NCBI RefSeq assembly: GCF_000063445.1 | Contig: NC_009464.1 | Coordinates: 2,666,001 to 2,730,000 of the forward strand | DNA from: Methanocella arvoryzae MRE50 | Lineage (GTDB): Archaea > Halobacteriota > Methanocellia > Methanocellales > Methanocellaceae | Direction: 5' to 3' | DNA length: 64,000 bases | Shown here: in pieces, positions 6,289-43,774 of the stretch | Numbering within the stretch: the stretch's first letter is position 1 | Layout of the letters: each line of letters opens with the position of its first letter | Notes under the pieces: generated by a model | Database searches by the model: none | The model's input: only the letters and a program-made list of their open reading frames with translations | Told to the model about the DNA's origin: nothing | Translations under genes and position numbers: made by a program

Positions 6289-7662
6289 ATGAACCCACTA
6301 CGGGGTAACACCTTGTTCGAGCCAAAAGTGTATAAGAAGAACGGCCTTGAAGCCTTCCGGCTGGTCGGCAGCGATGGCAGCGAGTTCTTCTACGAGGGTG
6401 CCATAGACTGTAACGAGAAGGAGATATTCAAGGACGAGCAGGGACGGCTATACTATCCTGTCCTTACGGAGATAGGCGGGGCCGTGCGGTACTATGTCGA
6501 GCTTGACCTGGATTTCCCGACTATCCCGGCTAACGACCCCGCATACGAGGAGAAAGAGATCTCCCGGCTGGTCAACGCCTCGCCCCGGAGCGGCAGGCAG
6601 CTGCCCGAAGACGTGTTTGTCCCCCGGACAGAGGAAAAGGTCGTTGCAGAAGAGCCAGCGTTAGAAGAGCCTGCGCAAGAAGTCCCTGCGCCAGAAGTGC
6701 TTGTGCAAGAAGTGCCTGTGCAAGAAGAGCCTACATCAAAAGAGCCTGCGTCAGAAGAGCCCGCGCCAGAAGAGCCGGCACCCCCCGCTATAACTGAGCC
6801 TGAACCGAGCCAGGAGCCTGTCGCTCCCGAAGTTAAGGCCAGCCCTGCCGAGCCTGTTGTTAGCGCGCAGGAGAAATCGCCTGAAGCTGAGCCTCTTGCA
6901 CGTAAGCCCCGGAAAACCCGACCAATGACGGTCCCCCTCGCAATAGGGCTTATTCTCGTCATCCTGATCGCAGCGATAGCCGGCGCCTACGTGCTAAAGC
7001 CTGAAGCATTCGATGGCCTCACCTCGCTTTATGCGCCCACACCGGTGCCGCAACCCACCCCCCTCCCCACTGCAGAGCCTGAGGTCACGGCCACGCCAGA
7101 GCCTGCCCCGGAACCGGTCTCCGAGCCTCAGAACGTAGCCACAGAAGCGCTCCGGATTCAGCCCCTGATCAACATAGATAGTCCGGCAGTGTCCGCTTTT
7201 GCAGCCGAGCATATCGCCGCAAACTCGGGGGCCAACAAAATCAGGCAGGCCTACGATCTCTACACGTTTGTGAATACCCGGTGGAACTATACTGACGATC
7301 TGACCTCCCAGGGCTTGCCAGCCAGCACCCTGACTCAGGCGCTCGGCGGCAATTCAAGGGACTACAGCGTCCTCATGTGCTCGCTGACGACCTCGGTCGG
7401 CCTGGAATCCCGGATCATAGCCTACTATAAAAACAACCAGCTGTACTACTACCCGGAAATACTTGTAGCGAACACTTCCGACGACTATGAAGCAGTCAAA
7501 GCGGACCTAAAGACCTGGTTCGGAGTCACCCAGGCCTACGGCCACAGCGATGCCAGAGGCTACTGGATTTCGCTGAGCAGGGGTACCGCCCCGGGCACCA
7601 GGGTTGAAGCCGCCGAGGAGTTTGCGATCTACATCTCGGGACCGCCCGTAAAGATCAAGTAA
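6289..7662 (+). CDS. Membrane-anchored protein with degenerate transglutaminase-like domain
   Basis: The 457-aa protein has four parts. Residues 1-115 are a globular N-terminal domain. Residues ~120-195 are a low-complexity stretch of EEPAPEEPA-type repeats. One membrane helix (VPLAIGLILVILIAAIAGAY, ~residues 210-230) is followed by a PTP-rich linker. The C-terminal ~165 residues resemble a transglutaminase/cysteine-protease fold. In that fold the segment around GGNSRDYSVLMCSL aligns with the usual GDCxDYAVLL, so the catalytic Cys appears replaced by Ser; the enzyme is probably inactive or a binding module. The C-terminal domain is predicted outside the cell. A leading TATATATG suggests a nearly leaderless start. 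No operon partner is seen. Confidence 0.65.
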   Translation: MNPLRGNTLFEPKVYKKNGLEAFRLVGSDGSEFFYEGAIDCNEKEIFKDEQGRLYYPVLTEIGGAVRYYVELDLDFPTIPANDPAYEEKEISRLVNASPRSGRQLPEDVFVPRTEEKVVAEEPALEEPAQEVPAPEVLVQEVPVQEEPTSKEPASEEPAPEEPAPPAITEPEPSQEPVAPEVKASPAEPVVSAQEKSPEAEPLARKPRKTRPMTVPLAIGLILVILIAAIAGAYVLKPEAFDGLTSLYAPTPVPQPTPLPTAEPEVTATPEPAPEPVSEPQNVATEALRIQPLINIDSPAVSAFAAEHIAANSGANKIRQAYDLYTFVNTRWNYTDDLTSQGLPASTLTQALGGNSRDYSVLMCSLTTSVGLESRIIAYYKNNQLYYYPEILVANTSDDYEAVKADLKTWFGVTQAYGHSDARGYWISLSRGTAPGTRVEAAEEFAIYISGPPVKIK

Positions 7663-15195: not shown

Positions 15196-15875
15196 AGTCT
15201 ATCGCTTTGTTATCCAGTGGCCTGGACTCTGTCGTAGCGTTCAAGAAAGAGCACGACGAGCATGGCGTCGCTCTCGCCATCACCTTTGATTACGGCCAGC
15301 GGGCCGCTTCTAAGGAGATTGAGATGGCGAGGCAAATCTGTGCCAGGTACCACGTCAGGCACGAAGTGATCGAGCTCCCGTGGCTTAAACAGATTACGAG
15401 AACTGCGCTGGTCAGCCGGCAGGCTGAGGTGCCTGAGCCGACGGAGGCAGAGCTGGACGAGATCAAGGGCAGGGCACTGGAGACCGCCCACCTGGTATGG
15501 GTTCCCAATCGTAACGGCGCGTTCATCAACATCGCCGCAGCGTTCGGGGATGCTTACGGGTATAACCGGATCGTCTGCGGCTTCAACGCGGAAGAGGGCG
15601 CTACCTTCCCGGACAATACCCCGGCATACGTGGACGCGGTCAACAAGAGTTTGGCCCTCTCCTGCGAGAAGCAGGTGCAGGTAGTAGCTCCGGTGATTCA
15701 CTTCGACAAGGAGGAGATCATCCGGGAAGGTGTCAGGATTGAAGCTCCGCTGGATTTAAGCTGGAGCTGCTATTTCGCAGGGGAGAAGCCCTGCGGCAAA
15801 TGCGAGAGTTGTATGAGGCGGGCCAGGGCCTTCAAGCGGGCCGGAGTGCCCGATCCTTCTCTGGGAGGCGTTTAA
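15192..15875 (+). CDS. queC: 7-cyano-7-deazaguanine synthase QueC
   Basis: QueC converts 7-carboxy-7-deazaguanine to preQ0 with ATP and ammonia. The N-type PP-loop motif (LLSSGLDS) lies at the N terminus, and the zinc-binding C-terminal cysteines are present (CYFAGEKPCGKCESC). In archaea preQ0 is put into tRNA position 15 to make archaeosine. The start is odd: an in-frame TAA at 15186 leaves only CTG (15192) or TTG (15207). TTG would remove half of the first beta strand (KSIAL), so the CTG overlapping the previous stop (CTGA) gives the complete fold. I chose 15192; TTG 15207 remains possible. Confidence 0.9.
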   Translation: MKSIALLSSGLDSVVAFKKEHDEHGVALAITFDYGQRAASKEIEMARQICARYHVRHEVIELPWLKQITRTALVSRQAEVPEPTEAELDEIKGRALETAHLVWVPNRNGAFINIAAAFGDAYGYNRIVCGFNAEEGATFPDNTPAYVDAVNKSLALSCEKQVQVVAPVIHFDKEEIIREGVRIEAPLDLSWSCYFAGEKPCGKCESCMRRARAFKRAGVPDPSLGGV

Positions 15876-29132: not shown

Positions 29133-29207
29133 GGGCGGGTCGCCTAGCCAGGACATAGCGCCGGCCTCCTAAGCCGGATACCGTGGGTTCGAATCCCACC
29201 TCGCCCG
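29133..29207 (+). tRNA. tRNA-Arg (anticodon CCT)
   Basis: A 75-nt tRNA without encoded CCA. The acceptor stem GGGCGGG pairs with CTCGCCC (one G-U), the anticodon stem CCGGC/GCCGG encloses the loop CTCCTAA (anticodon CCT, reading AGG), and the T arm is GTGGG TTCGAAT CCCAC. The discriminator base is G at 29207. The last four bases are the first part of a 14-bp target duplication, and an integrated casposon starts 10 bases later, so the tRNA is intact. Confidence 0.95.
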
Positions 29208-29217
29208 CTGGCTTTTA
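29204..29217 (+). repeat. Left 14-bp target-site duplication of the casposon
   Basis: CCCGCTGGCTTTTA is exactly repeated at 43761-43774. Its first four bases are the last four of the tRNA, so insertion restored an intact tRNA 3' end. Confidence 0.95.
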
Positions 29218-29351
29218 GGGGATAATGATATCCCCCCATTTTTTGCCGTTTTTTCTGGACGCTCCAAACTTATTATCGCCTAACAGAGGCTTGGTCTACG
29301 AATATTAATATGACAATAATTTTATAAAATATGATTTTGGACTTAATTTCA
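29218..29351 (+). repeat. Left terminal inverted repeat of the casposon
   Basis: Bases 29218-29256 are a perfect reverse complement of 43722-43760. Beyond this, similarity continues imperfectly to about 29351; both sides share the blocks CTTGGTCT, TATTAATAT, TTATAAAA and GACTTAATTTCA in the same order. The outermost 18 bases are a near-hairpin (GGGGATA, four-base loop, TATCCCC) followed by CCATTTTTT, which could terminate transcription of the upstream tRNA. Confidence 0.93.
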
Positions 29352-29610
29352 AACGAGGCCCTAATAATTTGGTCGGGGGAAATGCAACATTACCTCATAC
29401 AAAAGTCGCTTAGAAAGACGGATCTATGATAATAACAATTCCATGATTATACCTGATTATGGTCATCGTTTATACTGATCTATATCAATTTTGGAGTCTG
29501 GCATATAGCTTGGCTTAATAAGAGATATATTTGTAACGGGTATAAGGAAATACTATTTCAGTATTCATGACAAATAATGAAAAGCTTAACTATGATTGAA
29601 TTATTTTAGT
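29352..29610. other. AT-rich left shoulder of the casposon, no gene seen
   Basis: Between the left repeat and the IS4 insertion I see no coding frame, tRNA or clear repeat. Base use is as AT-rich as the neighbouring cargo. Confidence 0.5.
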
Positions 29611-29619
29611 TTACTATTT

Positions 29620-30678
29620 GAGACTTTTGCATAAGTCATCCGATGATTGTGGTCCGGGGGTTTGCTCCTTGTTTGACCTGGTAGAGTACTTGGATTTGTC
29701 GTGCTATCAGTGTGAGTCCGGTCTTTACAGTAACTCGAAGGATTCTGGTAGTTTTTACTCGTTTTAGGGTGAGGTGTTCTTTTAAAAGGTAGTTGGTGTA
29801 CTCGCAATGCATCCGGTTTTTATATAATTTGTTTAGGGTTATGTCATGGAAGGGGATGATCTCCTGTATCCGGTACCTGGGAAGCTCTTTCTTAGTGTTT
29901 CTACGGTTAGTCCTGTTAATCATAGGTATGCCCAACGGGTAAAGACGTTCGATATGCTCTCTGGAATCGTAGGCAATATCAGCAAACAGCCCGTTCATCA
30001 ATAAGCTGTGCGAGCCCATTTTCTCTAGTAGCGGCAAGACCTGTGTGGTGTCATGAATATTTGCTGGAGTCACTACACTGCAGATGGGCGCTAATGTGGG
30101 AAGATCGTACAGCAGGTGTATTTTGTACCCGTAATACATTTCGTCGGCGATATGATCGTAGCCCCATGCAGCGTCCGGATCTGTCTTGTTAAACGCCGGA
30201 AGGCTTGTGCTGTCCACTCCGACCATGCACATGAAATCCGGGTCTTTGTCCCGTATCATGCTCCTCAGAATCCGCATGATCCTGTCAATCTCTATGCTTT
30301 CTTTGAACCTGCTGAACGTGCTTTCGCTCGGCAACTGATTAAAGCCAAGAAACTCTAATTTATATAAATCACCGGCCAGTATTCTTACCAATTTACTAAC
30401 GCTCGGAATACCGGCCAACTCCATGTAGACGAGGGCTTTGAGTAAAGCGATTTTACTGTAAATCGATGGCCTGCCACGCTTATTATTCTTCTCAACGAAG
30501 CTGAAACGCTGCCAGTCAATCGCTTCTATCATCTCAAGGTACGTGTCAGAAAGTATTTTGCATTGGCAGTCGAAGCAAGAACCGGGCATCTTCCAGCCCG
30601 TACAATCGTTTTTACTGAGCATAAAACCGATACGGCTAAGATGCCCATATACTTTTTACCGATTTATGCAAAAGTCTC
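29620..30678. mobile_element. IS4-family insertion sequence nested in the casposon
   Basis: A 1059-bp element is bounded by 15-bp inverted repeats (GAGACTTTTGCATAA at 29620-29634; the mirror at 30664-30678) and flanked by a 9-bp direct duplication TTACTATTT (29611-29619 and 30679-30687). It holds one transposase gene. The clean ends and intact frame indicate a recent insertion after the casposon was assembled. Confidence 0.92.
29636..30622 (-). CDS. IS4-family DDE transposase
   Basis: A complete 328-aa transposase. The N-terminal region carries an HTH-like SESTFSRFKESIEI. The DDE acidic residues appear in MVGVDSTSLPAF (first D) and LFADIAYDSREH (second D), and the glutamate is in the IS4 signature Y-(2)-R-(3)-E-(6)-K, here YKNRMHCEYTNYLLK. 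It excises and inserts the 1.06-kb element around it. No frameshift is present, so it could be active. Confidence 0.9.
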   Translation of the reverse strand: MLSKNDCTGWKMPGSCFDCQCKILSDTYLEMIEAIDWQRFSFVEKNNKRGRPSIYSKIALLKALVYMELAGIPSVSKLVRILAGDLYKLEFLGFNQLPSESTFSRFKESIEIDRIMRILRSMIRDKDPDFMCMVGVDSTSLPAFNKTDPDAAWGYDHIADEMYYGYKIHLLYDLPTLAPICSVVTPANIHDTTQVLPLLEKMGSHSLLMNGLFADIAYDSREHIERLYPLGIPMINRTNRRNTKKELPRYRIQEIIPFHDITLNKLYKNRMHCEYTNYLLKEHLTLKRVKTTRILRVTVKTGLTLIARQIQVLYQVKQGANPRTTIIG

Positions 30679-30725
30679 TTACTATTTGATAGAAATATCC
30701 TATCTAGATCTTGCAGAGGGATGTT

Positions 30726-32618
30726 ATGGCGAATGATAGTCTTTCTAATAATCTTATTGAAAAAATTCGTAATAGAGAAATTATTTTATGGGTAGGTTCG
30801 GGTCTTTCGTTTGTCGCTGGATATCCATCAGCAAAGAGATTAGGGGCGATTATTAAAGAACACGTTACGCCTGAACAACTCAAACATTTTGATGATAAAG
30901 AATTAGATGGTATTGCAGAGGAATATGTCCAAATATATTCACGAGAAAAATTGATAAATATCTTATCCGATGTTTTCCAAAAAGAGCCTAATATTATTGA
31001 TTACCATAAAATGATAAGTGAAATCCCCCAAATAGAAGTCATAGTAACAACAAATTATGATAAATTGTTTGAGATGGCTTATGCTAATAATATATTAAAG
31101 ATAGTTACTGATTCAGATATTGCTAAATCTGCAAATGATAACATAGCTCACTTATATAAAATACATGGGTGTATAGATTCACCTGATAATATAATAATAA
31201 CAAAAAGTGATTATACAGGATTTTTTACTAACGGACAATATAACTTATTATGGAGCGCTTTAAAAGTATTAGCATCTAAGTATTCTATCCTTTTTATAGG
31301 ATATTCTTTTGAAGACCAAAATGTGAAATACGTTTTTGAAGATGTTCTAAAACAATTGGGCGATAATCATAAGGATTATTTCCTAATTTCTCCTGATTTC
31401 CCGGAGCATAAACAACAAGTTTTGAAACAATATTCAATAGAATATATCCAGATGAAAGCTGAAGATGCAATACCAAAAATATACAAAGAGATCAATGAAC
31501 ATTTAATTGATGATGGGATAAAAGGGCGAATACCGTTATTGAAATGGCAAAAAGCACTTGAGGATAGAAAAATTGAAGTGGTATCAAGTTTAGAAGGCGG
31601 AAAGGTATCAATAAAAAAGATAGGAACTAAAGACAATTCCGTGAAAGCTGGCGGTACAATTCATTTTAAAACAACTAATGATAATCGCCAAAAAATAAAT
31701 GAATTATTTGATGTAATAAATGGTAAAAAAATTGGTCAGGTCAAATTATCGAAAGAATTTGATGATTTGGACTTAAAAACATTTTTCGGTGAAAGTATTT
31801 TTATAGGTGGAGAAGAATTCAAGATCGAAGAATTGGAAATCAAATCTCCTGTGCAGGACATTAGAACAAATTTTATACTTAAAAAGTCTAAGTTGTCTTT
31901 TGAAAATGTACCGGGAGAAAAATTAAATACGGGAACAGTAGCTCAAATTAAATTACACCCACCAGGTTTCGATTTTATATTAGATTTTAAAGTAACTGAA
32001 AATGTGATGGTTGATTGTCCTATTAACTTTACGTTTCATATAGATAATGTATTACAAGGATATCAAGCACTTAATTTTTTCAACGAATGGATAAAAGGCG
32101 ATGAGTTATTAATATATATTAATTTAATAGAAAAACCTTTAATTATACCATTTTCGAATATTAATATAGAAAAGACGTGGTTAGATTCTATAAACTTTAT
32201 GTTTTTTGTATATAATATATTATATGAAATCCAAAATGAATTTAATATTATATTAAATGTCCCTAAAGAATTTTCAGATGAGGAACTTGATGATATTCGA
32301 GTCGTAAATAGTTTAATAAAACAAAAAAGAGCTAAACTAAAATCTTTCAAAATAAATATTAATTCAAAAGAGTTACAAAAAATGAATATGAATGAAATAA
32401 TGCCTAAGTTACTTTTAACTTATGATAGTATTACTTTTGGTTTGTTCGATAAAAAATTTGAATATAAAAATTGTTCGGTATATTTTGAGGATGCGTATAT
32501 CAATAATAAAGATGAAGTATTGAAACAAATGGTTGAAGGAATAGATGAACCAATAGTTGAACTTTTTAGTAATTGTGATAAAATAGTCTTGATAATCGAA
32601 CAAATAACTTTATTATAA
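30726..32618 (+). CDS. SIR2-domain protein (putative defence NADase) of the casposon
   Basis: The 630-aa protein has an N-terminal SIR2-like domain (residues ~1-260): WVGSGLSFVAGYPS (NAD-binding GxGxS), VIVTTNYDKLFE, catalytic-type HG in LYKIHGCIDS, and FIGYSFEDQNVKYVF. The remaining ~370 residues are an unrecognised beta-rich domain that could sense phage or bind a partner. Such SIR2 proteins are typical of anti-phage abortive systems that destroy NAD. The gene is far more AT-rich than the casposon core, suggesting separate origin. ATG 30726 follows AGAGGG. The next gene is a HEPN-like protein on the same strand. Confidence 0.8.
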   Translation: MANDSLSNNLIEKIRNREIILWVGSGLSFVAGYPSAKRLGAIIKEHVTPEQLKHFDDKELDGIAEEYVQIYSREKLINILSDVFQKEPNIIDYHKMISEIPQIEVIVTTNYDKLFEMAYANNILKIVTDSDIAKSANDNIAHLYKIHGCIDSPDNIIITKSDYTGFFTNGQYNLLWSALKVLASKYSILFIGYSFEDQNVKYVFEDVLKQLGDNHKDYFLISPDFPEHKQQVLKQYSIEYIQMKAEDAIPKIYKEINEHLIDDGIKGRIPLLKWQKALEDRKIEVVSSLEGGKVSIKKIGTKDNSVKAGGTIHFKTTNDNRQKINELFDVINGKKIGQVKLSKEFDDLDLKTFFGESIFIGGEEFKIEELEIKSPVQDIRTNFILKKSKLSFENVPGEKLNTGTVAQIKLHPPGFDFILDFKVTENVMVDCPINFTFHIDNVLQGYQALNFFNEWIKGDELLIYINLIEKPLIIPFSNINIEKTWLDSINFMFFVYNILYEIQNEFNIILNVPKEFSDEELDDIRVVNSLIKQKRAKLKSFKININSKELQKMNMNEIMPKLLLTYDSITFGLFDKKFEYKNCSVYFEDAYINNKDEVLKQMVEGIDEPIVELFSNCDKIVLIIEQITLL

Positions 32619-32773
32619 AATCAATTGTTCCATTAATTTTATTTATATATATTTAAAATAATATATATTGCTATACTAACGATTGTATTATATACATAAA
32701 TATGATTATTAGAAATATTTGATGCATATCCTGCTAAATCTAAACATTCTATGAACAAAACTTATAAGTTGTA

Positions 32774-33595
32774 GTGAAAAAATTAATTAACGATTATATG
32801 TCTCTCACCTATAGAAAAATAGATGCTGATTTTTTAGCTAAATTGCCTGCTAACATAAAAAGTGATATTGAAAGTTATAACAATAGGATGTTAGGCAAGC
32901 CGTTTCCTTCGGGTGAAAAAGTAATTGTTACATATTGTACATATTGCCCATATTGTAAAAAAGCAACTATGGGCGGTTTCCCTGATGAGCGTGAACCTAC
33001 ATTTTGTATGTTTTGTGGTGAAACCGATACATATATCAAAGTTACAAGGAGTCTTTCAAAAGCTAAGGATCTATTAATCCTATCAAATAATACCATAATA
33101 GATGTTAATCTTAAAAGAATATTGCATGAACAGATTATTATAATTATTGCCACAAGTATGGAGATATTTCTTAGGGACATATATGCAACTTTATTAAACA
33201 TAAGATACATAAAAAGCAATCTATCATTATATGAGCGATTTTATAGGGACAGTAAAAACGATTTTGCGACATTTGGAAAAGCTAAAAAAGAGCTACAGAA
33301 CGAATTAAATATTAATTTTAATACCTTTTTAAGCGATGATGAAATTGATAATTTAAATATTCTATCCCTAAAAAGAAATGTAATTGTACATAATGCTGGG
33401 ATAATAGATAACCCGTATATAAGTCAATCTGGGCAAAAAGATTTAGCGATAGGGAGGCAATTACCAATAATTGAATCTGAAATAAATCTATATATTGATG
33501 CGATAGAAAAATTATCGAATGGACTATTTGATATACTAAAAAAAGAGCATGAAGATGAACTCATAAAAAAATTTGAAATAATTCTTGTAAAATAA
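32774..33595 (+). CDS. Zinc-ribbon protein with HEPN-like RNase motif
   Basis: A 273-aa protein that starts with GTG. Residues 55-81 carry cysteine pairs (CTYCPYC and CMFCGE), a probable zinc ribbon. The helical C-terminal half contains R201-N-V-I-V-H206 (in LKRNVIVHNAG), the Rx4H motif of HEPN ribonuclease/toxin domains, placed in a helix-loop as in that family. It lies 155 bases after the SIR2 gene on the same strand and shares its low GC content, so they may be co-transcribed. HEPN assignment rests on the motif and helical context; no partner antitoxin is evident. Confidence 0.6.
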   Translation: MKKLINDYMSLTYRKIDADFLAKLPANIKSDIESYNNRMLGKPFPSGEKVIVTYCTYCPYCKKATMGGFPDEREPTFCMFCGETDTYIKVTRSLSKAKDLLILSNNTIIDVNLKRILHEQIIIIIATSMEIFLRDIYATLLNIRYIKSNLSLYERFYRDSKNDFATFGKAKKELQNELNINFNTFLSDDEIDNLNILSLKRNVIVHNAGIIDNPYISQSGQKDLAIGRQLPIIESEINLYIDAIEKLSNGLFDILKKEHEDELIKKFEIILVK

Positions 33596-33941
33596 GACCT
33601 CAGTCATTATAAACATTTTATATATCTCATCTGTAAAAATTCCCTAATGTGAAGATAAATGAAGTCATAAGGTAGAGCATAAGTAATCATAAGAAAGGTA
33701 TAAGAAACCTGACACAAACCTGTGTTATTCTCATAGAAAATAAAATTTCGCCTTGCTGCACTATTGTTGTTGTACTAGAATAATTGCTGAAAAACAGAAT
33801 ATTATATATTTTTCTATAACAAGTGATAAGACTTCTTAACAAAATATGAAGTCGATGCTAAGCGAAAATGACAAACTCTACAAGAAAAAAGTACAATTGT
33901 CCTGTTTTCTATAAGAGAAAACAAGAGTTGTAGTACATTTG
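33596..33941. other. Gene-free region between HEPN gene and cas1 with TIR-like block
   Basis: No gene is seen. Bases ~33853-33891 (CGATGCTAAGCGA, 15 bases, CAAGAAAAAA) resemble the inner part of the right casposon repeat (CGATGTTAAGCGA, 17 bases, CAAGAAAAAA, 43690-43729) in the same orientation. A hairpin (TGTTTTCT/AGAAAACA, 33903-33922) and an inverted pair AAGACTTCTTAAC/GTTAAGTCTT also occur, the latter just past the cas1 stop, a possible terminator. Confidence 0.45.
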
Positions 33942-35162
33942 TTAAGTCTTAGTACTATTTAGCTTACCCTTGCTCTTTTCATATATTTTGATTCGCTTGC
34001 CTTCCCGAAGGTTTTTCTGCATATACCAGAGCGTTGTTTTACTGATTCCAAGTTTTTTCCTTTCAGCTGGCGTCATTTTTAATAGTGCATCTCTAACATC
34101 CGATGGATCGTCTCTATTAACCATTATGTCCGGTGTTGTAAACTCTACCGTCTTATTTTTGTCTTGTATGAAGTTAGCGAACTGTTGAACCTGGTCAATG
34201 AGGATATTCTCATAGGTGTAGTTTTGATTCTTGTATGGTGCCTTAAGGTTGAAGTTCAGCTTTATACGCTCAATTAATTTCTTAGCGGTTGCTTCTCTTA
34301 GTCTGAGGTGGTAATTTTCTGTTACAATAAAGTCGTTCTTCTTGAGTTTCTTTTCCTCTAGTAGCTGTATTACGGATAGGTCGATGAGCCAGCGGTATAA
34401 TTCTTGGAGGTCGTAGACGAGTGGTGCACCGCTGCCTTTCATTTCATGCAGGTACCCCATTGCTGGATCGAGGCCCATAGCATTGATGGGGCGTCGTATT
34501 TGTGCTTCTAGAATAGCGTAGCCGTAGTTTAGGAGTGCGTTGATTTCGTCGCTGGCGTTCATGTTCCAGCTGTTGCTCTTGTTTCTTCTTCCGGTGAACC
34601 TGAAGTCCGGGTATAGTTTGTTGAAGACTTTTGTTAGCCTGTCCCAATACGCCTTTGCTGTCTTGGCTTCGTACACCATGATTTTGTTGATATCATGTTG
34701 TTCTTTCTTGTTATAAGCTACAAATCCCGTGTACTCGTTGATGAAGGCTTCTTCTATCTCACTCTTATCCAGCTCTTCGTAATAGTCCGATAATTCCGTT
34801 AGTAGGTTGCAGGATTTCTTGACCTTTTCTTTAATAATCTGATAAGCGATATTGTACCTTGTTGTGGGGTCGAGGTATTTGGCGTATTGTTTTACTCGTA
34901 GTTTGCCTACGCTAGTTTCTTTAGGCATCCAGGTGCCGAGCAGATTACCATTCCAATCAAGTAGTGTTAAGTTGATTTTGTGCTTCATTATCCAGCGCAT
35001 AGCCTCAAAGCTAATGTTGCCAGTAAAACCATCGATTACAATAGTATCGTGATCTATCTGATGAGGATAGAATTCATAATCATTGGTTTCAGTACTAATT
35101 TTTAATCTTCGTTTTTCTACCGATATTCTGGTTCCAAAGCCTTGAATTAGTAATGGGTTCAT
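33942..35162 (-). CDS. cas1: Casposase Cas1 with C-terminal helix-turn-helix
   Basis: The casposon integrase, 409 aa counted from the GTG at 35171 or 406 aa from the preferred ATG 35162. The Cas1 fold is clear: an N-terminal beta domain (residues 5-85; IVIDGFTGNISFEAMRWIMK), then the helical domain with active-site residues Glu168 (VYEAKTAKAYW), His242 (GYLHE) and Asp254 (VYDLQELYR). Residues ~360-395 form an extra HTH (TPAERKKLGISKTTLWYM) absent from CRISPR Cas1. By homology it joins element ends to a target, as in spacer insertion. The start overlaps the stop of the winged-helix gene by about 70 bases. No cas2 or repeat array is nearby. Confidence 0.95.
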   Translation of the reverse strand: MNPLLIQGFGTRISVEKRRLKISTETNDYEFYPHQIDHDTIVIDGFTGNISFEAMRWIMKHKINLTLLDWNGNLLGTWMPKETSVGKLRVKQYAKYLDPTTRYNIAYQIIKEKVKKSCNLLTELSDYYEELDKSEIEEAFINEYTGFVAYNKKEQHDINKIMVYEAKTAKAYWDRLTKVFNKLYPDFRFTGRRNKSNSWNMNASDEINALLNYGYAILEAQIRRPINAMGLDPAMGYLHEMKGSGAPLVYDLQELYRWLIDLSVIQLLEEKKLKKNDFIVTENYHLRLREATAKKLIERIKLNFNLKAPYKNQNYTYENILIDQVQQFANFIQDKNKTVEFTTPDIMVNRDDPSDVRDALLKMTPAERKKLGISKTTLWYMQKNLREGKRIKIYEKSKGKLNSTKT

Positions 35163-36096
35163 TTTTATCACTCGTTTTTAAGAACTTAGATAAGAAGTGG
35201 TTACTATCGTCTCTTTTCACTATTTTATTTGTTAATAAATCAGTTATAAAGAGGGATTTTAAAATCAATATTGTTAAAGATTCATTATCTTCTTTTGTAA
35301 GGGAATTAAAATTATATTCGATTATTTCATTGAAAAATTCGATAGAGAACCCTCGTTCATCGAATAATTGTTCCATAATTTTTTGAAGTAATAATGGGTC
35401 AGCGTATTTTGGTTTTAAGCTATATCTTAATGCACTTGGAGATAATAAGAGAATATCAATTATATCTTCAAATTCATCCTTTGAAATTACAAAAGATGAC
35501 CTCAATAAAAGACTATTATTTGAGCGATTATCTAGTTGATGATCTCCTAATCTATTTTGGAGTTTATCTTCAATATCCTCAATAAATGAATTTTCGATAG
35601 TCTCAACTAATCGCCTATGTTGATTTTTTATTCTATCGTCTTTATCTTCTTTTTCAATTTTATCAATAATAGAGCAATGTCGTTGATTTATTGATTCTTG
35701 AAGCAAATTGATAAGCCATTTTCCTTTGAAGTCTTCCGATGTAACGTAATGATGGTAGTATTGTGTTTTCATGAATTCTTGTTCTAATTGATTATCTTGG
35801 AAGAATTCGTGTAGATTTTTAAAATTGTCAAATCCATTTAGATAATAAGTATCGGGTTTTCCTTTACCTTGACTTCTTTTTAATAAGAGTTTATCTTCAA
35901 TAAGCTCCGCTAAATGGGTTCTTAAGACTTTGAGATTTCGGATATTAAGAGAATCTTTTAGATGATCTCGGATCGCCTGAAATGAGGTCTCACCATTATT
36001 TGCCACTAGTAAGAGGATTGTGGTTTTTGTTTTTCCTGGTGGTTCCCGGTTGTTTGGCTTCCGACGCTTCATCCAATAATGTATCGTATTTTTCAT
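35095..36096 (-). CDS. Casposon winged-helix protein
   Basis: This 333-aa protein begins with a winged HTH (residues ~20-95; KTKTTILLLVANNGETSF, then LRTHLAELIEDKLLLKR and a GKPDTYYL wing), followed by about 240 charged residues with likely coiled coil (residues 130-180). The wHTH part is not one of the core casposon families I can name. It is the first gene of the leftward operon and overlaps cas1 by about 70 bases, so it is probably a regulator or DNA-binding partner of Cas1. Confidence 0.7.
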   Translation of the reverse strand: MKNTIHYWMKRRKPNNREPPGKTKTTILLLVANNGETSFQAIRDHLKDSLNIRNLKVLRTHLAELIEDKLLLKRSQGKGKPDTYYLNGFDNFKNLHEFFQDNQLEQEFMKTQYYHHYVTSEDFKGKWLINLLQESINQRHCSIIDKIEKEDKDDRIKNQHRRLVETIENSFIEDIEDKLQNRLGDHQLDNRSNNSLLLRSSFVISKDEFEDIIDILLLSPSALRYSLKPKYADPLLLQKIMEQLFDERGFSIEFFNEIIEYNFNSLTKEDNESLTILILKSLFITDLLTNKIVKRDDSNHFLSKFLKTSDKNEPITNSRLWNQNIGRKTKIKN

Positions 36097-36322
36097 ATAA
36101 AAACCTGCCTACACAGTACACTATAATTCGGCTAAGGTGTATACCCCACACAAAAATATTTATAGGACTACCCACTATACTCGCGGTTGCTAGCCAAGCG
36201 GTAACTACGCAGCACACTAAAAAACAAGAACATAGACCGCTTGTAAAAACATTAACGAAAAACAGACAGCAAAGTGGGAAAAGGTGGGTCTGGCAACCAG
36301 GTGGGACACAGGAGACAACAAT
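36097..36322. promoter_or_regulatory. Divergent promoter region of the casposon core
   Basis: A 226-base gap separates the leftward wHTH-cas1 unit from the rightward HTH-HNH-polB unit. AATATTTATAGG (36156-36167) is a TATA candidate for the rightward operon; TTTTTATATG read on the minus strand (around 36100) is one for the leftward genes. Short GTGTATACCCCACAC-like and AGTGGGTAGT sequences nearby could bind the HTH proteins. Confidence 0.45.
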
Positions 36323-36850
36323 ATGCCAAAGAATTCCAAGGTCCCCCTTCACAGGACCACCACACAAGGATTAACCGTAGAAAACAAGGTGATGAGAGCC
36401 AAGACCACCGAAGTGGTCGGAATCGCTCGCAGAACAGGAAAGCCCATCCAGGACTTGGCCAGACAGTACGGCCTAACCATGGATGAGATAAAGCGGCATA
36501 CAGGCGCTGTGAAAAAGCTGGGAGATACCTGGGCTGTCACTGCGTATGACCATGTGCCCCGAGAAATGCTCATCTTCGAGAACGGGCGGGAAGTCCAGAT
36601 TGAAGTTGCTGACTCTCGGGAAGCTACAAAAATCAGTCAGTACCACAACGCCATACGAGGATACCTCGCAGCGAAAGGCCCTGCCAAAGAAAAAGCCCTA
36701 CGCCAACTGAAAAACTATGGGAGTATCCGCATAAAAGATGCCACAGGTCGACTACACAGTTTAGAGACTGACCCGGATGTCATCCGCGAGATTGTGTTGA
36801 GAAAGGAGGTGCCAGAGTATCCAGAACCCTACCCTGAAGGCTGGAGGTGA
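36323..36850 (+). CDS. Casposon helix-turn-helix protein
   Basis: A 175-residue protein with a central HTH-like segment (GKPIQDLARQYGLTMDEIKRH), followed by an alpha/beta part. First gene of the rightward operon, it overlaps or abuts the HNH gene. Its conserved placement beside HNH and PolB matches HTH genes described in casposons, where they may regulate transcription or help replication. ATG 36323 follows a GGAG ribosome site; the in-frame start at 36284 lacks one. Confidence 0.7.
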   Translation: MPKNSKVPLHRTTTQGLTVENKVMRAKTTEVVGIARRTGKPIQDLARQYGLTMDEIKRHTGAVKKLGDTWAVTAYDHVPREMLIFENGREVQIEVADSREATKISQYHNAIRGYLAAKGPAKEKALRQLKNYGSIRIKDATGRLHSLETDPDVIREIVLRKEVPEYPEPYPEGWR

Positions 36851-36855
36851 TAACG

Positions 36856-37347
36856 ATGGTTACAAACCTAACTGTCATCGTAGCCCGGAGGGTAGTGGAA
36901 TGGAGAGACGACGTACAAAACCAGCTGGGGCATATTCCACAATACGTTGAGGAAGCTGATTGCTGGGTGATGGAGCTAACAATACGCAATGAATCCTCTC
37001 GAAAAAGGAATCGCTGCGAAGCATGCATCAAAAATGGTCCCATGGATGGCCACCATTTAGCTGGAAAGGCATTCGAAGACGTATGCCCCCAGAAAGCATG
37101 GATCTGCAGACAGTGCCATGAGAGCTTCACACCTGAACAAGCAGTAAAGGACAAGCTCCTCAGTATAGCATGCGAAAATCACAGAAGGAAAAAGCCGCGC
37201 TTAGAAACAGGGTATGCCTCATTCCTGCTAGGATTACAGAACCTGATCATGCTCAAAGCCAAAGCATGCGACCAGCCCCTCTTAGAGGGGTTATCGAAAA
37301 AGTTCACACCAGACATAATCGAACTACTCGGGATATACAATGGATGA
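36856..37347 (+). CDS. HNH endonuclease of the casposon
   Basis: A 163-aa nuclease with an HNH motif framed by zinc cysteines: CEACIKNGPMDGHHLAG (first CxxC and His pair) and KAWICRQCHESF (second CxxC and final His). HNH enzymes nick or cut DNA with a metal ion; in casposons this is a regular core gene whose role is untested. ATG 36856 lies 9 bases after GGAGG (36842-36846), whereas GTG 36847 does not. It overlaps polB by eight bases. Confidence 0.88.
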   Translation: MVTNLTVIVARRVVEWRDDVQNQLGHIPQYVEEADCWVMELTIRNESSRKRNRCEACIKNGPMDGHHLAGKAFEDVCPQKAWICRQCHESFTPEQAVKDKLLSIACENHRRKKPRLETGYASFLLGLQNLIMLKAKACDQPLLEGLSKKFTPDIIELLGIYNG

Positions 37348-40162
37348 TATCTACGTTAGGTACCACATGGGCCGTGGAGAACAGGCCGAATACCACAACG
37401 CTGGCCAGCCAACAATTAACAATAGCAGAATAGACCTGGTATTCGATACTGAGACTACCACGGATCGGTACCAGAACCTAACGTTCGGCTCATGCGGTGT
37501 CTGGGTGAACGGCAAGCCTGACAGGTTCCTAATTTTTTTCGACCATGAACTACCAAAACCCAGCACAGACATCATAAAAGCCTACAACATCCAGTACAAC
37601 ACCGAAAAAATACTAAACGACAAACTCCCCGGAACAACATTTAACTCCTACGAGCTGATGACAAAGGAGGAATTCGTGGAAAACGTACTCTTCCCCTACG
37701 TATTTCAGGCTCGCGCTAACTGCATCTGCTTTAACATACCCTTCGATATCACCAGACTCGCCATAAAGTTCTCAGAGTCGAGAAAATACAATAACGGCTT
37801 CTCAGTAACACTATCCGAGAATCCTAATAACCCTCGCATAGTCATAAAACACATCGATTCTAAGAGAGCCTTTGTAGAACTTACAAATCCAGATCGCAGT
37901 AAGGGTAAAAAGAAGAAAAAGCGGAGACCTTTCCGGGGCAACTTCCTCGACCTCCGAACATTCACATTCGTCCTAACCAACGAAGGATATGACCTGGGAA
38001 GAGCGTTACCGGACTTCGGTAGCAAATTCAGGAAAATGAGCCCGGAGGAACACGGGAAAATCACACCTGAGTATATCACCTATAACATAAATGATACCCT
38101 GGCAACTTACGACTTATACGTTCAGGCTTTGAAGAGGTACCGTTGGTACTGTCTTGATAAAACACCCACCAAACTGTACTCACCGGCCAGCATCGGGAAA
38201 GCCCTTCTCGACAAAATCGGCATACTTCCATTCCACTTTAAAAACCCGGAGTTCCCTGAAGAAATTTTGGGCTATGTCATGATGGGCTACTACGGAGGCC
38301 GTACAGAGACACGCATACGCAAAGAACCCAGACTAATAACATGCCTCGACTACATCAGCATGTACCCCTCTGTATTCGTCCTCCTGAACATGTACAGATT
38401 CCTAATCGCCAAAAACATCCTGCGAGAAGATGCCACAAAAGACGCTCAGACGTTACTTGACAAGATAACCCCAGAGGATATCCGTAACAAGGAGCTATGG
38501 AACGATTTCACAATCATTTGTGAGCTTGAGCCTAACGAGGATAAAGTCCCTGTAAGGTCCTCATATGGCAATAAGTACGCACTTAACATTGGCATTAATT
38601 ATCTTATCTCGACAGATGGTTCAACGATTTGGTACACCCTTATCGACCTTATCGCTGCAAAAATGGACCAGGGGAAAGCACCCAGGATAAAAAGAGCTAT
38701 CAGATTCATCCCGAGTGAGCCACAGGATAACTTAAACTCAATAACCTACCTGAAAGGCTTACCACCCTTAGAACCCGGCGCTGACCTGATAAAATACCTG
38801 ATCATCGAGCGAGACCATATCAAAAAGCTCATGAAAAGCCCTGAATGGGAAGGCAAAAAGGACACAGAGGAATACCGAGAACTGGAGATATCAGAGCAAA
38901 TCCTCAAAATCATAGCCAATTCCACCTCCTATGGCATATTCATCCAGCTAAACCCCGAAGACGCCGATAGCGAAGAAGTAACTATCTTTTGCGATCAAAC
39001 CTTCACAGCCGAGGTAAACAAGATAGAGAAGCCAGGCCCAGCATTTAACCCTATTATGGCAGTGTTCCTCACAGCAGGCTCACGCCTTATTCTTGCAACA
39101 GCCGAGGCCTTAATCACCCGTGAAAACGGGTATTTCGCCTACTGTGACACTGATAGTATATTCATATCACCCGAACACGTACCCATGATCCAGGAATTCT
39201 TCCGAGACCTCAACCCCTACGGAGTACACATAGAGGACATGTTCAAAATTGAAGATAACAAGAGTCGGAAGAAAAAAGTCAAAAGAGTAGTCAAACTTGA
39301 AAACGTCTGGCTATACGCCATATCCGCAAAAAGATACGTCCTATACCATGTACACGATAATGGGGCAATCGAGATACTCAAGTACTCATCACACGGACTC
39401 GGTCATCTTATGAACATCGATGAGGCCCAGATCTGGATGGACATCTTAACTTTACACTACCACCCAGAAGAGGCCGATGAGATATTCCAGCGGTACAAGG
39501 GCAAATACGCTTTCTCAAAACTGGCCATCACGACATATGACATATGGGCTCGGGTAAACAAGCGTAATCAAGGCAAGCCACTCAAAGAACAGATTAAGCC
39601 ATTCAATTTCATCCTTGTAGGAACCTCATACCGCACAGACCCAGAGACAAAACAGCCAATAATCCCCACCTGGCCTTACAACAGCGCTGACGACAAAGAA
39701 TTCGCAAAACTACCATACATGCCATTCATCGATTACAAGACCGGCAAAACCTACACAAACCCACCAGCAGCTGGTCAGGAATTCAGCACCGAATTCTACC
39801 TAAAACCAATGGATGAAGTACTCTACGACTATGTCAATCACCCGGAGGCAAAATCCGAAGGCGATACAGGACTACTAAAGTCAAGGTACCTTCACATAAA
39901 TAAAGCATCCATACACCGCATAGGAAAAGAATCCGATGACATAGAAAACTCTCTAATATTTGGTCTACCCTCGGATTCGTATGGGGAAGTAGCAAATATC
40001 TACCAGGCAATAAGCAACCTTACGCCAAAAGATGCTGGAAAACTGGGCATACCAGAAAGAACCCTTAGGAAGTGGAAAGCAAAAATACGGGAAGGTAAGC
40101 CACTTAACATGAAAAACAGTGTAATTATAAAATTAAAAAGGCCTATTGAATCAATAGAATAG
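37340..40162 (+). CDS. polB: Family B DNA polymerase of the casposon, with C-terminal HTH
   Basis: A 940-residue replicative-type polymerase. The proofreading exonuclease motifs are VFDTETTT (Asp36, Glu38), FNIPFDIT and YNINDTLATYD. The polymerase motifs are DYISMYPSV (motif A, ~337), NSTSYGIF (motif B, ~527) and YCDTDSIFI (motif C, ~602). All catalytic acids are present. The last ~40 residues, TPKDAGKLGIPERTLRKW then REGK, resemble the HTH tail of the casposon Cas1. It would replicate the element. It overlaps the HNH stop by eight bases. GC content is intermediate between host and SIR2 cargo. Confidence 0.95.
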   Translation: MDDIYVRYHMGRGEQAEYHNAGQPTINNSRIDLVFDTETTTDRYQNLTFGSCGVWVNGKPDRFLIFFDHELPKPSTDIIKAYNIQYNTEKILNDKLPGTTFNSYELMTKEEFVENVLFPYVFQARANCICFNIPFDITRLAIKFSESRKYNNGFSVTLSENPNNPRIVIKHIDSKRAFVELTNPDRSKGKKKKKRRPFRGNFLDLRTFTFVLTNEGYDLGRALPDFGSKFRKMSPEEHGKITPEYITYNINDTLATYDLYVQALKRYRWYCLDKTPTKLYSPASIGKALLDKIGILPFHFKNPEFPEEILGYVMMGYYGGRTETRIRKEPRLITCLDYISMYPSVFVLLNMYRFLIAKNILREDATKDAQTLLDKITPEDIRNKELWNDFTIICELEPNEDKVPVRSSYGNKYALNIGINYLISTDGSTIWYTLIDLIAAKMDQGKAPRIKRAIRFIPSEPQDNLNSITYLKGLPPLEPGADLIKYLIIERDHIKKLMKSPEWEGKKDTEEYRELEISEQILKIIANSTSYGIFIQLNPEDADSEEVTIFCDQTFTAEVNKIEKPGPAFNPIMAVFLTAGSRLILATAEALITRENGYFAYCDTDSIFISPEHVPMIQEFFRDLNPYGVHIEDMFKIEDNKSRKKKVKRVVKLENVWLYAISAKRYVLYHVHDNGAIEILKYSSHGLGHLMNIDEAQIWMDILTLHYHPEEADEIFQRYKGKYAFSKLAITTYDIWARVNKRNQGKPLKEQIKPFNFILVGTSYRTDPETKQPIIPTWPYNSADDKEFAKLPYMPFIDYKTGKTYTNPPAAGQEFSTEFYLKPMDEVLYDYVNHPEAKSEGDTGLLKSRYLHINKASIHRIGKESDDIENSLIFGLPSDSYGEVANIYQAISNLTPKDAGKLGIPERTLRKWKAKIREGKPLNMKNSVIIKLKRPIESIE

Positions 40163-40346
40163 CCCCTACATACTTCTTTAGATAATCGCTGTTGCTATAT
40201 GCAATAGACATATGTTACAATAAAATGAAAGTATGTTGCATGCGCTTGAGTTCAACATAAAGCTACAATTATCGCCATTGTGTGCTCGAGTCGATAGTCG
40301 TTGATTGTATCCTAAAAGCGAAGAAAGCTGAGGCTATCAAGAACGG

Positions 40347-40631
40347 TTATTTAAGGAGTTTTTTATAAGCGTGGCAGCGGTAATCGTATTCTCGTAGAAT
40401 CTCGAATTCGAGCACTTGCGTTCGTATTATCATCGATCGTATCTGTTGGCCCACTTCTGATATACTTATGAGTTTTGCGGGACCACTTGCTACTATCTCG
40501 CATTGTTCGTGGAAAACCGTGTAATCCTCGACTACGTCGTTACGGATAGTAAAAACATGACAGAGTCGATGTTCGTAGATACGTACTGCAAATCCTTTGT
40601 TCAATTGGAAGATTTCAGCATCAAGGTGCAC
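40347..40631 (-). CDS. Hypothetical small protein on the minus strand
   Basis: A 94-aa frame with a GTG start and no family recognised. It reads as a mixed alpha/beta protein with a basic C terminus (YDYRCHAYKKLLK). Evidence is only the frame length, convergence with polB and plausible composition; it may be a random frame in AT-rich DNA. Confidence 0.4.
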   Translation of the reverse strand: MHLDAEIFQLNKGFAVRIYEHRLCHVFTIRNDVVEDYTVFHEQCEIVASGPAKLISISEVGQQIRSMIIRTQVLEFEILREYDYRCHAYKKLLK

Positions 40632-40735
40632 GCTTACTCATCGGCAATAACACGATAAAAACATCAGGTTATAGTATTCCGAAAATAAAAAACATAGATA
40701 GTAACAGGATTGGTTAGCAAGCAACAAACATTATT

Positions 40736-41389
40736 ATGCAAAAAACACCTCTTAACATAGAAATGCTCAATATTAAGCAACTGGTAATCGGCCTAATATA
40801 TCTTATTACAATAACATCGATATTATTCGGTTACGTTAGTGGCTTTCATATTTTTTTCGTTATACCAGCCGTGGTCTGTTTTCCGTTATGGTTTAACAGG
40901 TATGTCCATTCATTTGATAGCGACAAAGAACAGATAAAAATTTTCACTACTTGGCTTGGAGCGGCAACACTAATTATTGTTGAGTATTGGATGATTGTTT
41001 TATTTTTCGAGCAACTTTTTAAAACAATTATGGATCAGAACTCCTATGCTGATACGGGGATCATTATTTTATTTATATTAATTATAGCAGAATTAACCGT
41101 TCTTACTGGAAAAACATCTCAAAAAATTATCAGACTATTTACATATTACGATCATTACCGCCTGGGTGGTATACGCGATCTCTTGTCAAAAGAATTGTTG
41201 GTACACGGAGCATTTTGTATATACAGCATACCTATCATCCTATCGGCGGGAATCGCTGGACTAATAAATAACCCGAGTAACGCCAATAGTAAAACTGGGT
41301 TTTTATTAGTGTTTGCTATTGTTTATCTCATCGGTCAATTATTCGATAAGTTCGTCTGTAAACACGTTTTTAAAATAGACTTTGATTAA
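40736..41389 (+). CDS. Multispanning membrane protein (casposon cargo)
   Basis: The 217-residue protein has about five hydrophobic segments (LVIGLIYLITITSILFGY, FFVIPAVVCFPLWF, ATLIIVEYWMIVLFF, GIIILFILIIAELTVL and a C-terminal pair). No family is recognised. It is transcribed rightward alone and has low GC content like other cargo. Its role in the casposon is unknown; membrane effectors are common in defence and toxin modules, but nothing in the sequence shows this. Confidence 0.55.
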   Translation: MQKTPLNIEMLNIKQLVIGLIYLITITSILFGYVSGFHIFFVIPAVVCFPLWFNRYVHSFDSDKEQIKIFTTWLGAATLIIVEYWMIVLFFEQLFKTIMDQNSYADTGIIILFILIIAELTVLTGKTSQKIIRLFTYYDHYRLGGIRDLLSKELLVHGAFCIYSIPIILSAGIAGLINNPSNANSKTGFLLVFAIVYLIGQLFDKFVCKHVFKIDFD

Positions 41390-41515
41390 AAGGATACTAC
41401 TGTAGCAATTTCTTACATATTAACTTAAAAAGGTTCAATGAACCGCTTGGTATACTTATCCCATCACGAATACTTCTCAACAGTCTGGTAAGCATCTTGG
41501 TAACTATAAATATTA

Positions 41516-42430
41516 TTAATAATATATGTGTATACTGTTGATTATCCATGGCTCTTGTATGATGTAGAAATTGCCTGTATTTAATAGCAATTCCACATGG
41601 TACTGCGAACCAAAATTCGGGGTATATGCGATTTTATCATAATTGTGTGTATACACTGTGTCCCCAGTGCAATCAATATAAATGGACCCTCTATCAGTCG
41701 TATTAAAAACATTTAGGGCATGTCCAGACCCATCGGAAAATTCCAACGTAACCACGCCAGCTTTTATGCCCATACTTTCTGCATTATCATGTACCCTGAC
41801 CGCATAATCTATTCAAACAAAACTTTCCTCTCTATATGGTATTTGATCTGAATTGTCGGTTAAAACAAAATTGATTAATTCTTGATACGAAGGATTGGTC
41901 GCATTTGGGTTATTATGAATATACATATAAGCCCCAGTCGAATTGGTTTCGTAATAATGTGTATTTCCTACCTGATACGAAAGTTCAACTGTATTTGGAT
42001 CGTATATAAATTCGTAATAACCTAAACCAAGAATAGCAACCACTATCACTACGAGTATTGCAGAATACAAATTGCTATTCAAGATTGTTCTTATTGACCG
42101 AGACAGGTTAAAATTAAACCTCCGCCGGTAACGCTTTGGCTTATAAGGTTTCTTGGAAATTTTCTTTTCGAATGAGATTTGATTATTGGTGTTATTATAA
42201 TTTGAAATCGACGGGATATTTTGGGTATGTGGCGCTTCTTCCATGGTGGGTAATCTTTCAATTATTGGTGGCTCCTCAATAACCGAAAATTCCCTGATAA
42301 CAGAACTGCAATCGTGTTTTTCAGGCAGCCTATGCTCACCGCAGTATTTCCCCCCACACCTCTTGCATGTAAAGAGCAGAGGTTCGGTTTCACCACAAAT
42401 ATCGCAGCAATACACACCATTTTTAATCAT
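41516..42430 (-). pseudogene. AN1 zinc-finger/transglutaminase-like protein interrupted by TGA at the catalytic Cys
   Basis: Two frames read as one protein of ~304 residues broken by one in-frame TGA (41813-41815). Residues 8-41 form an AN1 zinc finger (CCDICGETEPLLFTCKRCGG and CGEHRLPEKHDC), with one membrane helix at ~125-145, then a transglutaminase-like domain. The segment after the stop is IDYAVRVHDNAESMGIKAG, followed by GHALNVF (catalytic His) and YIDCTGD (Asp). The stop sits where the catalytic cysteine is expected (C-x-D-Y/F-A). No frameshift occurs: the distance is a multiple of three. It is either a nonsense allele of a recently active gene, or a recoded UGA codon; the former is likelier. 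Confidence 0.7.
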
Positions 42431-42526
42431 AGGATAGCTTAATTATCACTTGTTGATCATTATAAAATGTTTCGTATGCAACCGATAAATTAAAAAGTAT
42501 ATTCATTTAATATAGTCTCGGTCGGT

Positions 42527-43414
42527 ATGTTATTGGAGATGGTTAATTCTTCAGTGGGATCATCCAATTTTGATCTGGCACTATTCATCATAGATAAAGT
42601 AAGTGATTTTATTGTTCAATTTTGTGGCGTCATTATTGGTGCTGCTATCTCATTTATTGCCTTAATGTGGAATGTGAAACGCGATGATAAAGCAAAAAAA
42701 GATGCGGACAAAGAATCATTGAAATTACATTTAAAAAGGGTTCAAAGCGAATTATATTATAATATAATAAAAATGGGATTTCTAAAAGTTGCGTGTGGTT
42801 TTACAAAGACTTATGGGGCATCGATGGAATTATTATCAGAAATATCCATTTTTTATGATAAGGAATTTAGAAGTGACGCTTATGATGATTTGATGCGCTC
42901 GGGATTGTTAATTAAGCCGGGTTTATTAAAAAATAATGAAGAAGTATTAATTAAATTATTAACTCTATATAATAAGGTTGATGATATGTTTCATAAATAC
43001 AAAGCTAACTCCCTAGAAAAATTCTACCCAGATTCAAGAGTGGATGAGTATAGCTTTGATGACGTAGATCATATTATCCAAAAATTTGCAATAGAATCCT
43101 CAGAAATGGCTGATGAAATGCTCAATGCTTTAATTTTAGTTAGCAAAGCAATAATTGAACTCTCTCCGAACGAAAAAAACAATCCAGATCAAAAACAATT
43201 TTGGAATATGGGCTTATTTGAAAATACTACTAAGCAGGATACTCCGAAAGAGAAAGTAGAATCAGAAACACCATCAATTGTATCAAAAACCAGTACTCTC
43301 ACCCCATCACCTATTCCACCACTAAGGTGGTATGATGATCGTTTTTTTAAAATCTGTTTCGGTGTGGCGACCCTGCTAATCATTATTCTTGGGGTGGCTG
43401 CAGTTGTAAGATAA
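42527..43414 (+). CDS. Membrane protein with long cytoplasmic helical region (casposon cargo)
   Basis: The 295-aa protein has a first hydrophobic segment (FIVQFCGVIIGAAISFIALM, ~29-48), a long, mostly helical charged region (residues 50-215), a PTPS-type linker, and a second membrane helix at the C terminus (FKICFGVATLLIIILGVAAV). No family is recognised. It is the last cargo gene before the right repeat, 212 bases away. Two-helix proteins with a large soluble loop are often membrane effectors or sensors, but this is only a possibility. Confidence 0.55.
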   Translation: MLLEMVNSSVGSSNFDLALFIIDKVSDFIVQFCGVIIGAAISFIALMWNVKRDDKAKKDADKESLKLHLKRVQSELYYNIIKMGFLKVACGFTKTYGASMELLSEISIFYDKEFRSDAYDDLMRSGLLIKPGLLKNNEEVLIKLLTLYNKVDDMFHKYKANSLEKFYPDSRVDEYSFDDVDHIIQKFAIESSEMADEMLNALILVSKAIIELSPNEKNNPDQKQFWNMGLFENTTKQDTPKEKVESETPSIVSKTSTLTPSPIPPLRWYDDRFFKICFGVATLLIIILGVAAVVR

Positions 43415-43626
43415 TCAAATTGATCTGAAAAGATCAGTTGCTTACTTGTAGTCACTGGCAGGACGTCTTTGTTTAGGATTAACATAACCAGTTTTTTATA
43501 TTTCAATGTTACAGTTGCTAACACGCAAATGCAATAATACGCTCTTTAACCACTAGCGTTTGTCTATATCACCCATATACTTATACTCAAAGGGCTTGCT
43601 TTAACAAGGGAATTAAACATATTCGA

Positions 43627-43760
43627 TGAAATTAAGTCTAAAAACACTTTTTATAAAAAGACTGCTATATTAATAATTAAAGACCAAGCCGATGTTAAGC
43701 GATAATATGTTTGGTATGGCAAGAAAAAACGGCAAAAAATGGGGGGATATCATTATCCCC
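43627..43760 (-). repeat. Right terminal inverted repeat of the casposon
   Basis: Bases 43722-43760 are the exact reverse complement of the left terminus (29218-29256). The imperfect extension reaches ~43627, giving 134 bp, equal to the left side. The DNA from 43415 to 43626 has no gene. Confidence 0.93.
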
Positions 43761-43774
43761 CCCGCTGGCTTTTA
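43761..43774 (+). repeat. Right 14-bp target-site duplication of the casposon
   Basis: CCCGCTGGCTTTTA, identical to 29204-29217. It is followed by ATTTTTAAG, probably the original T-rich terminator of tRNA-Arg before insertion. Confidence 0.95.

Follow-up and report, generated by a model that had tools for sequence, protein, structure and literature searches.

A predicted SIR2 NADase-type protein and a zinc-ribbon HEPN protein as plausible defence cargo of a casposon in Methanocella arvoryzae MRE50

Introduction

ThsA of the Thoeris defence system carries a STALD/SLOG sensor in addition to its SIR2 domain and has a TIR partner, ThsB. DSR1, DSR2, and other single-gene SIR2 defence proteins combine a SIR2 NADase-type domain with a large private C-terminal region, and DSR1 and DSR2 are approximately 1,200 aa in length. 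In HEPN_RiboL-PSP (PF18735) and zinc-ribbon-HEPN proteins of defence islands, a zinc ribbon is followed by a HEPN domain with an Rx4H motif of the form RHxxxH. In the HepT/MntA (HEPN-MNT) system, the HEPN toxin is accompanied by an MNT antitoxin gene.

The origin of CRISPR adaptation has been linked to casposons, a group of transposons. A previous report described the casposon MetArv-C1 with an ISNCY insertion and tRNA-proximal casposon targets with a 4-7 nt overlap with tRNA genes (Krupovic et al. 2014, PMC4046053). In the same report, Sir2-like proteins were noted in three casposons, and a deacetylase or other activity was proposed for them. The element, Sir2-like casposon cargo, and the insertion sequence (IS) have thus been known since 2014 (PMC4046053), and the main text of that report mentions neither the HEPN gene nor NADase-type defence.

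In this study, we analysed a SIR2 gene and a HEPN gene lying side by side in a 64,000-nt stretch of M. arvoryzae MRE50 DNA (NC_009464.1, positions 2,666,001 to 2,730,000 of the forward strand; hereafter the window, to which all coordinates refer). A first-pass annotation had proposed the two genes as a candidate two-gene defence system. We found that the observation itself is confirmed and that a defence role is plausible, and that a two-gene system is unsupported by co-occurrence.

Results and Discussion

The two genes lie within a casposon at 29218-43760, as the first-pass annotation had placed them, and this location was confirmed by its terminal inverted repeats (TIRs) and target site duplication (TSD). 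A repeat search located the TIRs, each of 134 nt, at 29218-29351 (+ strand) and 43627-43760 (- strand), with the left TIR 84% complementary to the right. They are flanked by the 14-bp TSD CCCGCTGGCTTTTA at 29204-29217 (+) and its right copy, also of 14 bp, at 43761-43774 (+). The left TSD covers the final 5 nt of the tRNA-Arg (CCT) gene (29133-29208, +), which is the integration target. Cas1, the casposase (33942-35171, -), matched PF01867 with E=3e-60. An HNH-like nuclease of the casposon core (36847-37347, +) was read from the sequence, with weak zinc-finger matches only. The family B DNA polymerase (PolB; 37340-40162, +) matched PF00136 just under the cut-off (E=4e-4) and was recognised by homology to PolB of other casposons; it shares approximately 40% identity with its counterparts at other casposon-type loci, and Cas1 is also present at 33 of these 38 loci. 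Based on the name, the IS insertion, and its features, we infer that the element is MetArv-C1, described in PMC4046053. The casposon PolB was not found in three sampled Methanocellaceae relatives, so the element may be recent.

An IS with a DDE transposase (29620-30678, -) separates the SIR2 gene from the left end of the casposon. It has TIRs at 29620-29637 and 30661-30678 and a duplicated target, ttactatttga. The IS stops 47 bp short of the SIR2 start codon and may have altered SIR2 expression. The right-hand cargo (40736-43414), which is AT-rich too, consists of two membrane proteins, for which scanning gave no clear family match, and an AN1-like zinc-finger membrane protein.

The SIR2 gene (30726-32618, +) begins with the ATG at 30726, preceded by a Shine-Dalgarno-like GAGG, and encodes a protein of 630 aa. 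Its SIR2 domain occupies residues 1-250 (30726-31475, +) and matched SIR2_2 (PF13289) in Pfam with E=1e-35 and 123.4 bits against a cut-off of 24.5. The motifs GSGLS, TTNYD (N110), and KIHG (H147), previously noted as GSGLS, TNYD, and HG, aligned with their equivalents in ThsA and KomC. The codons of N110 and H147 are at 31053-31055 and 31164-31166. The nearest defence profile was PADLOC ThsA (E=2e-33), which covered residues 4-246 only. Sequence matches in the PDB were 7uxt (a 497-aa chain labelled USG protein), 8wc0 (ThsA), and the NADase KomC. These matches place the domain in the SIR2_2/ThsA NADase branch rather than in the classical deacetylase family.

The C-terminal domain (residues 251-630; 31476-32615, +), of approximately 370 aa, is a presumed sensor or regulator. 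It had no match in Pfam, NCBIfam, PHROGs, or the PDB, and no relative in 295 Methanobacteriota genomes, plasmids, viral contigs, or any of the fetched loci. The earlier assignment of this domain to no known family thus held in every library tried. The top plasmid match of the SIR2 protein was from Hymenobacter (31% over 277 aa). This protein is a single-gene SIR2 of approximately 650 aa with a different C-terminus, and BLASTP and single-sequence hhalign detected no similarity between the two C-termini. A single-sequence AlphaFold model of the C-terminal domain had a pLDDT of 32 and was discarded as unusable. Since the domain has no homologue in these searches, a sensing role is proposed for it by analogy only.

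Among known systems, Thoeris ThsA is the closest by profile and resembles the SIR2 protein in its SIR2 domain and catalytic motifs. However, the SIR2 protein has no STALD/SLOG sensor (no match to PF18185) and carries the unrelated C-terminus instead. A ThsB TIR partner (PF08937) had no match anywhere in the host genome. Membership in Thoeris was rejected because STALD and ThsB were both missing. The SIR2 protein is laid out like DSR1, DSR2, and other single-gene SIR2 defence proteins, with a SIR2 NADase-type domain and a large private C-terminal region, but its 630 aa are about half the length of DSR1 and DSR2. Dsr1 matched only the SIR2 part, with E=0.0012 and 16.6 bits, where the cut-off is 1400, and membership in DSR1/DSR2 was rejected because similarity did not extend over the full length. 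The SIR2 protein is thus predicted to be an effector of the NADase type, and with its private C-terminal domain it is arranged like single-gene defence sirtuins.

The second gene (32774-33595, +) encodes a zinc-ribbon HEPN protein of 273 aa when read from a GTG. The ATG at 32798 is a better start, because it is in frame, a TATA-like element, CTTATAAG (32761-32768, +), lies approximately 30 bp upstream, and the closest relative begins there. The element was read from the sequence and is a candidate promoter of the HEPN gene itself. The true start is probably this ATG, giving a protein of approximately 265 aa in which R201 and H206 become R193 and H198. The casposon HEPN protein was aligned with 44 relatives, drawn from relatives at 80 genome loci. 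The zinc ribbon C58-x2-C61 ... C78-x2-C81 (32945-33016, +) precedes the HEPN Rx4H motif R201-x4-H206 (33374-33391, +). R201 and H206 were present in 45 of 45 aligned members, and C58, C61, C78, C81, E119, G209, D212, and Y215 were invariant or nearly so. The alignment agrees with the original description of a 273-aa protein with a zinc ribbon and an Rx4H HEPN motif. The reading frames of both the SIR2 and HEPN genes are intact, and all predicted catalytic residues are present.

The casposon HEPN protein had no match over the curated cut-off in Pfam, NCBIfam, or PADLOC. Its closest relative, an archaeal protein (L003) with 34% identity, matched HEPN_RiboL-PSP (PF18735) with 32.2 bits against a cut-off of 28.4, and the casposon protein itself has no PF18735 match. 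An AlphaFold model built with the 45 sequences had a mean pLDDT of 82, with most of the HEPN part exceeding 90 and helices at residues 86-104, 111-145, 188-207, and 234-272. The 13 best PDB fold matches of this model in Foldseek were HepT-type HEPN toxins or YutE, with probabilities of 0.82-1.00 and no E-value below 0.05 (best E=0.057, probability 0.99). The model indicates that the second protein has an all-alpha HEPN fold. A non-HEPN fold in its C-terminal half had been named as grounds for rejecting the first-pass proposal, and the 13 matches instead agree with a HEPN fold.

The casposon protein shares the order of zinc ribbon and Rx4H-bearing HEPN domain with HEPN_RiboL-PSP and the zinc-ribbon-HEPN proteins of defence islands, but its motif reads RNVIVH instead of RHxxxH. 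Two cysteine modules and a length of approximately 335 aa characterise the bacterial relatives, whereas the casposon protein is of the short archaeal type with a single zinc ribbon. The PADLOC candidate PDC-M14A overlaps the N-terminal part of the bacterial relatives. The best solved-structure fold matches of the model were from HepT/MntA (7bxo, 7ae6, and 7ae8). In contrast to this system, no MNT gene was found beside the HEPN gene, and the HEPN protein carries an extra zinc ribbon. A nucleotidyltransferase (MNT) domain was not found among the neighbouring proteins scanned, and a HEPN-MNT toxin-antitoxin assignment was rejected on this basis.

We next consider the distribution and neighbours of the HEPN family. 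An archaeal two-sequence HEPN profile gave no match in genome contigs, and a bacterial-type profile was used instead. The family was found in 6 of 295 Methanobacteriota genomes, with the M. arvoryzae genome counted. With the casposon HEPN protein as the query, there was no match in phages or viral contigs. The neighbours of the relatives include HsdS, HsdR, AbiH, capP-like, ThsA/ThsB, Mrr, PLD, and KAP proteins, with no fixed partner. HsdS was the immediate co-directional neighbour in 4 of 60 cases, and other such neighbours were restriction helicases, M78 peptidase/capP-like, HTH, AAA, and AbiH proteins. The zinc-ribbon-HEPN family is widespread and largely uncharacterised; its members lie in defence neighbourhoods in numerous bacterial phyla as well as in some archaea. 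Defence had been suggested as the likely theme of the locus, and the type I restriction, AbiH, capP-like, and Thoeris genes beside the relatives support this suggestion.

In an ANME-1 contig (L034, 7001-9196), the genes that follow the zinc-ribbon-HEPN gene are the PADLOC candidate PDC-M50A and one for a TIR protein resembling ThsB. In a marine Pseudomonadales genome (L078, 7001-9986), a complete Thoeris pair, ThsA and ThsB, begins approximately 33 bp downstream of the zinc-ribbon-HEPN gene, which is possibly an accessory Thoeris gene there.

The SIR2 and HEPN genes are neighbours on the same strand, with GC contents of 0.275 and 0.285 and GC3 of 0.20 and 0.21, and they share one casposon. Adjacency, shared direction, and matching low GC would also suit joint acquisition and joint function. 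The two genes could therefore form one coupled system, in which SIR2 senses or signals and HEPN acts as a regulator or as a second effector, or in which NAD loss and RNA cleavage act jointly. The occurrence of other HEPN relatives beside NAD-pathway genes, namely ThsA-ThsB at L078 and the ThsB-like TIR gene at L034, is also in line with this explanation. However, the pairing did not recur. A SIR2 profile matched at 3 of 81 scan-derived HEPN loci, and another 8 loci, archaeal and plasmid, gave no match. The HEPN ORF was identified for 78 relatives. Of these, the one at L078 alone has a SIR2 gene immediately beside it in the same direction, and the product of that SIR2 gene is a full ThsA belonging to a complete Thoeris system. 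HEPN was found in 0 of 13 fetched stretches around SIR2 homologues, 8 of which extend just 1.5 kb on each side, and in 0 of 38 casposon-type regions, which come from 28 archaeal genomes other than that of M. arvoryzae. Neither the casposon SIR2 protein, searched with phmmer, nor its C-terminal domain was detected in these 38 regions. Furthermore, a gap of 155 bp, with the TATA-like element, separates the SIR2 stop from the HEPN start. Adjacency across genomes had been set beforehand as the test for one two-gene system, and co-occurrence elsewhere was largely absent. As for base composition, the genes are indeed AT-rich relative to the casposon core (PolB, 0.447), as had been stated, but AT-richness alone is a weak argument that they arrived together, because other casposon cargo is AT-rich as well (0.299 for the ORF at 35186-36096 and 0.33-0.37 for the right-hand cargo). 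Since SIR2 and HEPN were not found together elsewhere, ordinary defence cargo is likelier than a new two-part system. We consider a coupled system unlikely, with some weight left to a rare real pair because the sample is limited and the HEPN family is rare in Methanobacteriota. A more specific version appears improbable: an undescribed two-gene defence system on an archaeal casposon, whose zinc-ribbon HEPN RNase and SIR2 NADase, the latter with a novel kind of sensor domain, would work together so that infection sets off RNA cleavage as well as NAD loss.

Two further explanations set defence aside. The genes may serve the casposon, with SIR2 as a chromatin deacetylase or regulator and HEPN as an addiction toxin or regulator. 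Alba deacetylation is one option raised for casposon Sir2-like proteins in an earlier paper (Krupovic 2014, PMC4046053), and toxin-antitoxin pairs are common among HEPN toxins (PMC3710099). Against this, the placement of the SIR2 domain in the NADase branch argues for another activity, and the scanned neighbours include no MNT antitoxin domain; we regard a casposon-serving role as quite doubtful. The cargo could also be silent or decaying, carried without function after the IS severed SIR2 from its promoter. An IS with terminal repeats and a duplicated target directly upstream of the SIR2 gene, together with the possibly recent arrival suggested by PolB, is compatible with such a state. Nevertheless, both frames and all catalytic residues have been kept, the SIR2 ATG is preceded by its Shine-Dalgarno-like GAGG, and a separate TATA-like element serves as candidate promoter for the HEPN gene, which leaves silent cargo with little probability.

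Separate abortive-infection-type effectors, a single-gene NADase and a stand-alone RNase carried as casposon cargo, are the explanation that we favour and hold to be probable. In this model, the private C-terminal domain of the SIR2 protein would detect a viral product or another sign of infection and unleash the N-terminal SIR2 domain. The SIR2 domain would then hydrolyse NAD+ via N110 and H147, and the loss of NAD+ would cause the infected cell to halt or die. The zinc ribbon of the HEPN protein is probably a binding module for RNA, DNA, or a partner. Once triggered, a HEPN dimer would cleave RNA through R201 and H206. The two proteins would act independently of each other, to the presumed benefit of the casposon or its host.

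These findings add evidence that casposons carry innate-type defence effectors. SIR2-type genes were found in 2 of the 38 casposon-type regions, and neither was matched to the casposon SIR2 protein by phmmer. In one region (L161, 15136-19901), a casposon-type polymerase and Cas1 are followed by a cluster that reads as HsdM, HsdS, a SIR2 protein, and probably a type I restriction subunit, and casposon boundaries were not found around this SIR2-bearing cluster. The other SIR2-type gene (L140, 13313-14413) is a divergent SIR2/AbiH-like gene of 366 aa in another archaeal casposon, enclosed by perfect 34-nt TIRs at 7417-7450 and 15405-15438. The position of this gene inside the TIRs indicates that SIR2-type cargo recurs in casposons.

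Two subjects deserve follow-up. One is the orphan domain at the C-terminus of the SIR2 protein, a candidate new sensor; the other is the widespread zinc-ribbon-HEPN family, which suits experiments better than the SIR2-HEPN pair does. Among the bacterial relatives, the HEPN gene on the Sinorhizobium meliloti plasmid pSmeSM11a (L010, 1675-6516) forms a tight co-directional cluster with genes for a 507-aa hypothetical protein and a KAP-type NTPase.
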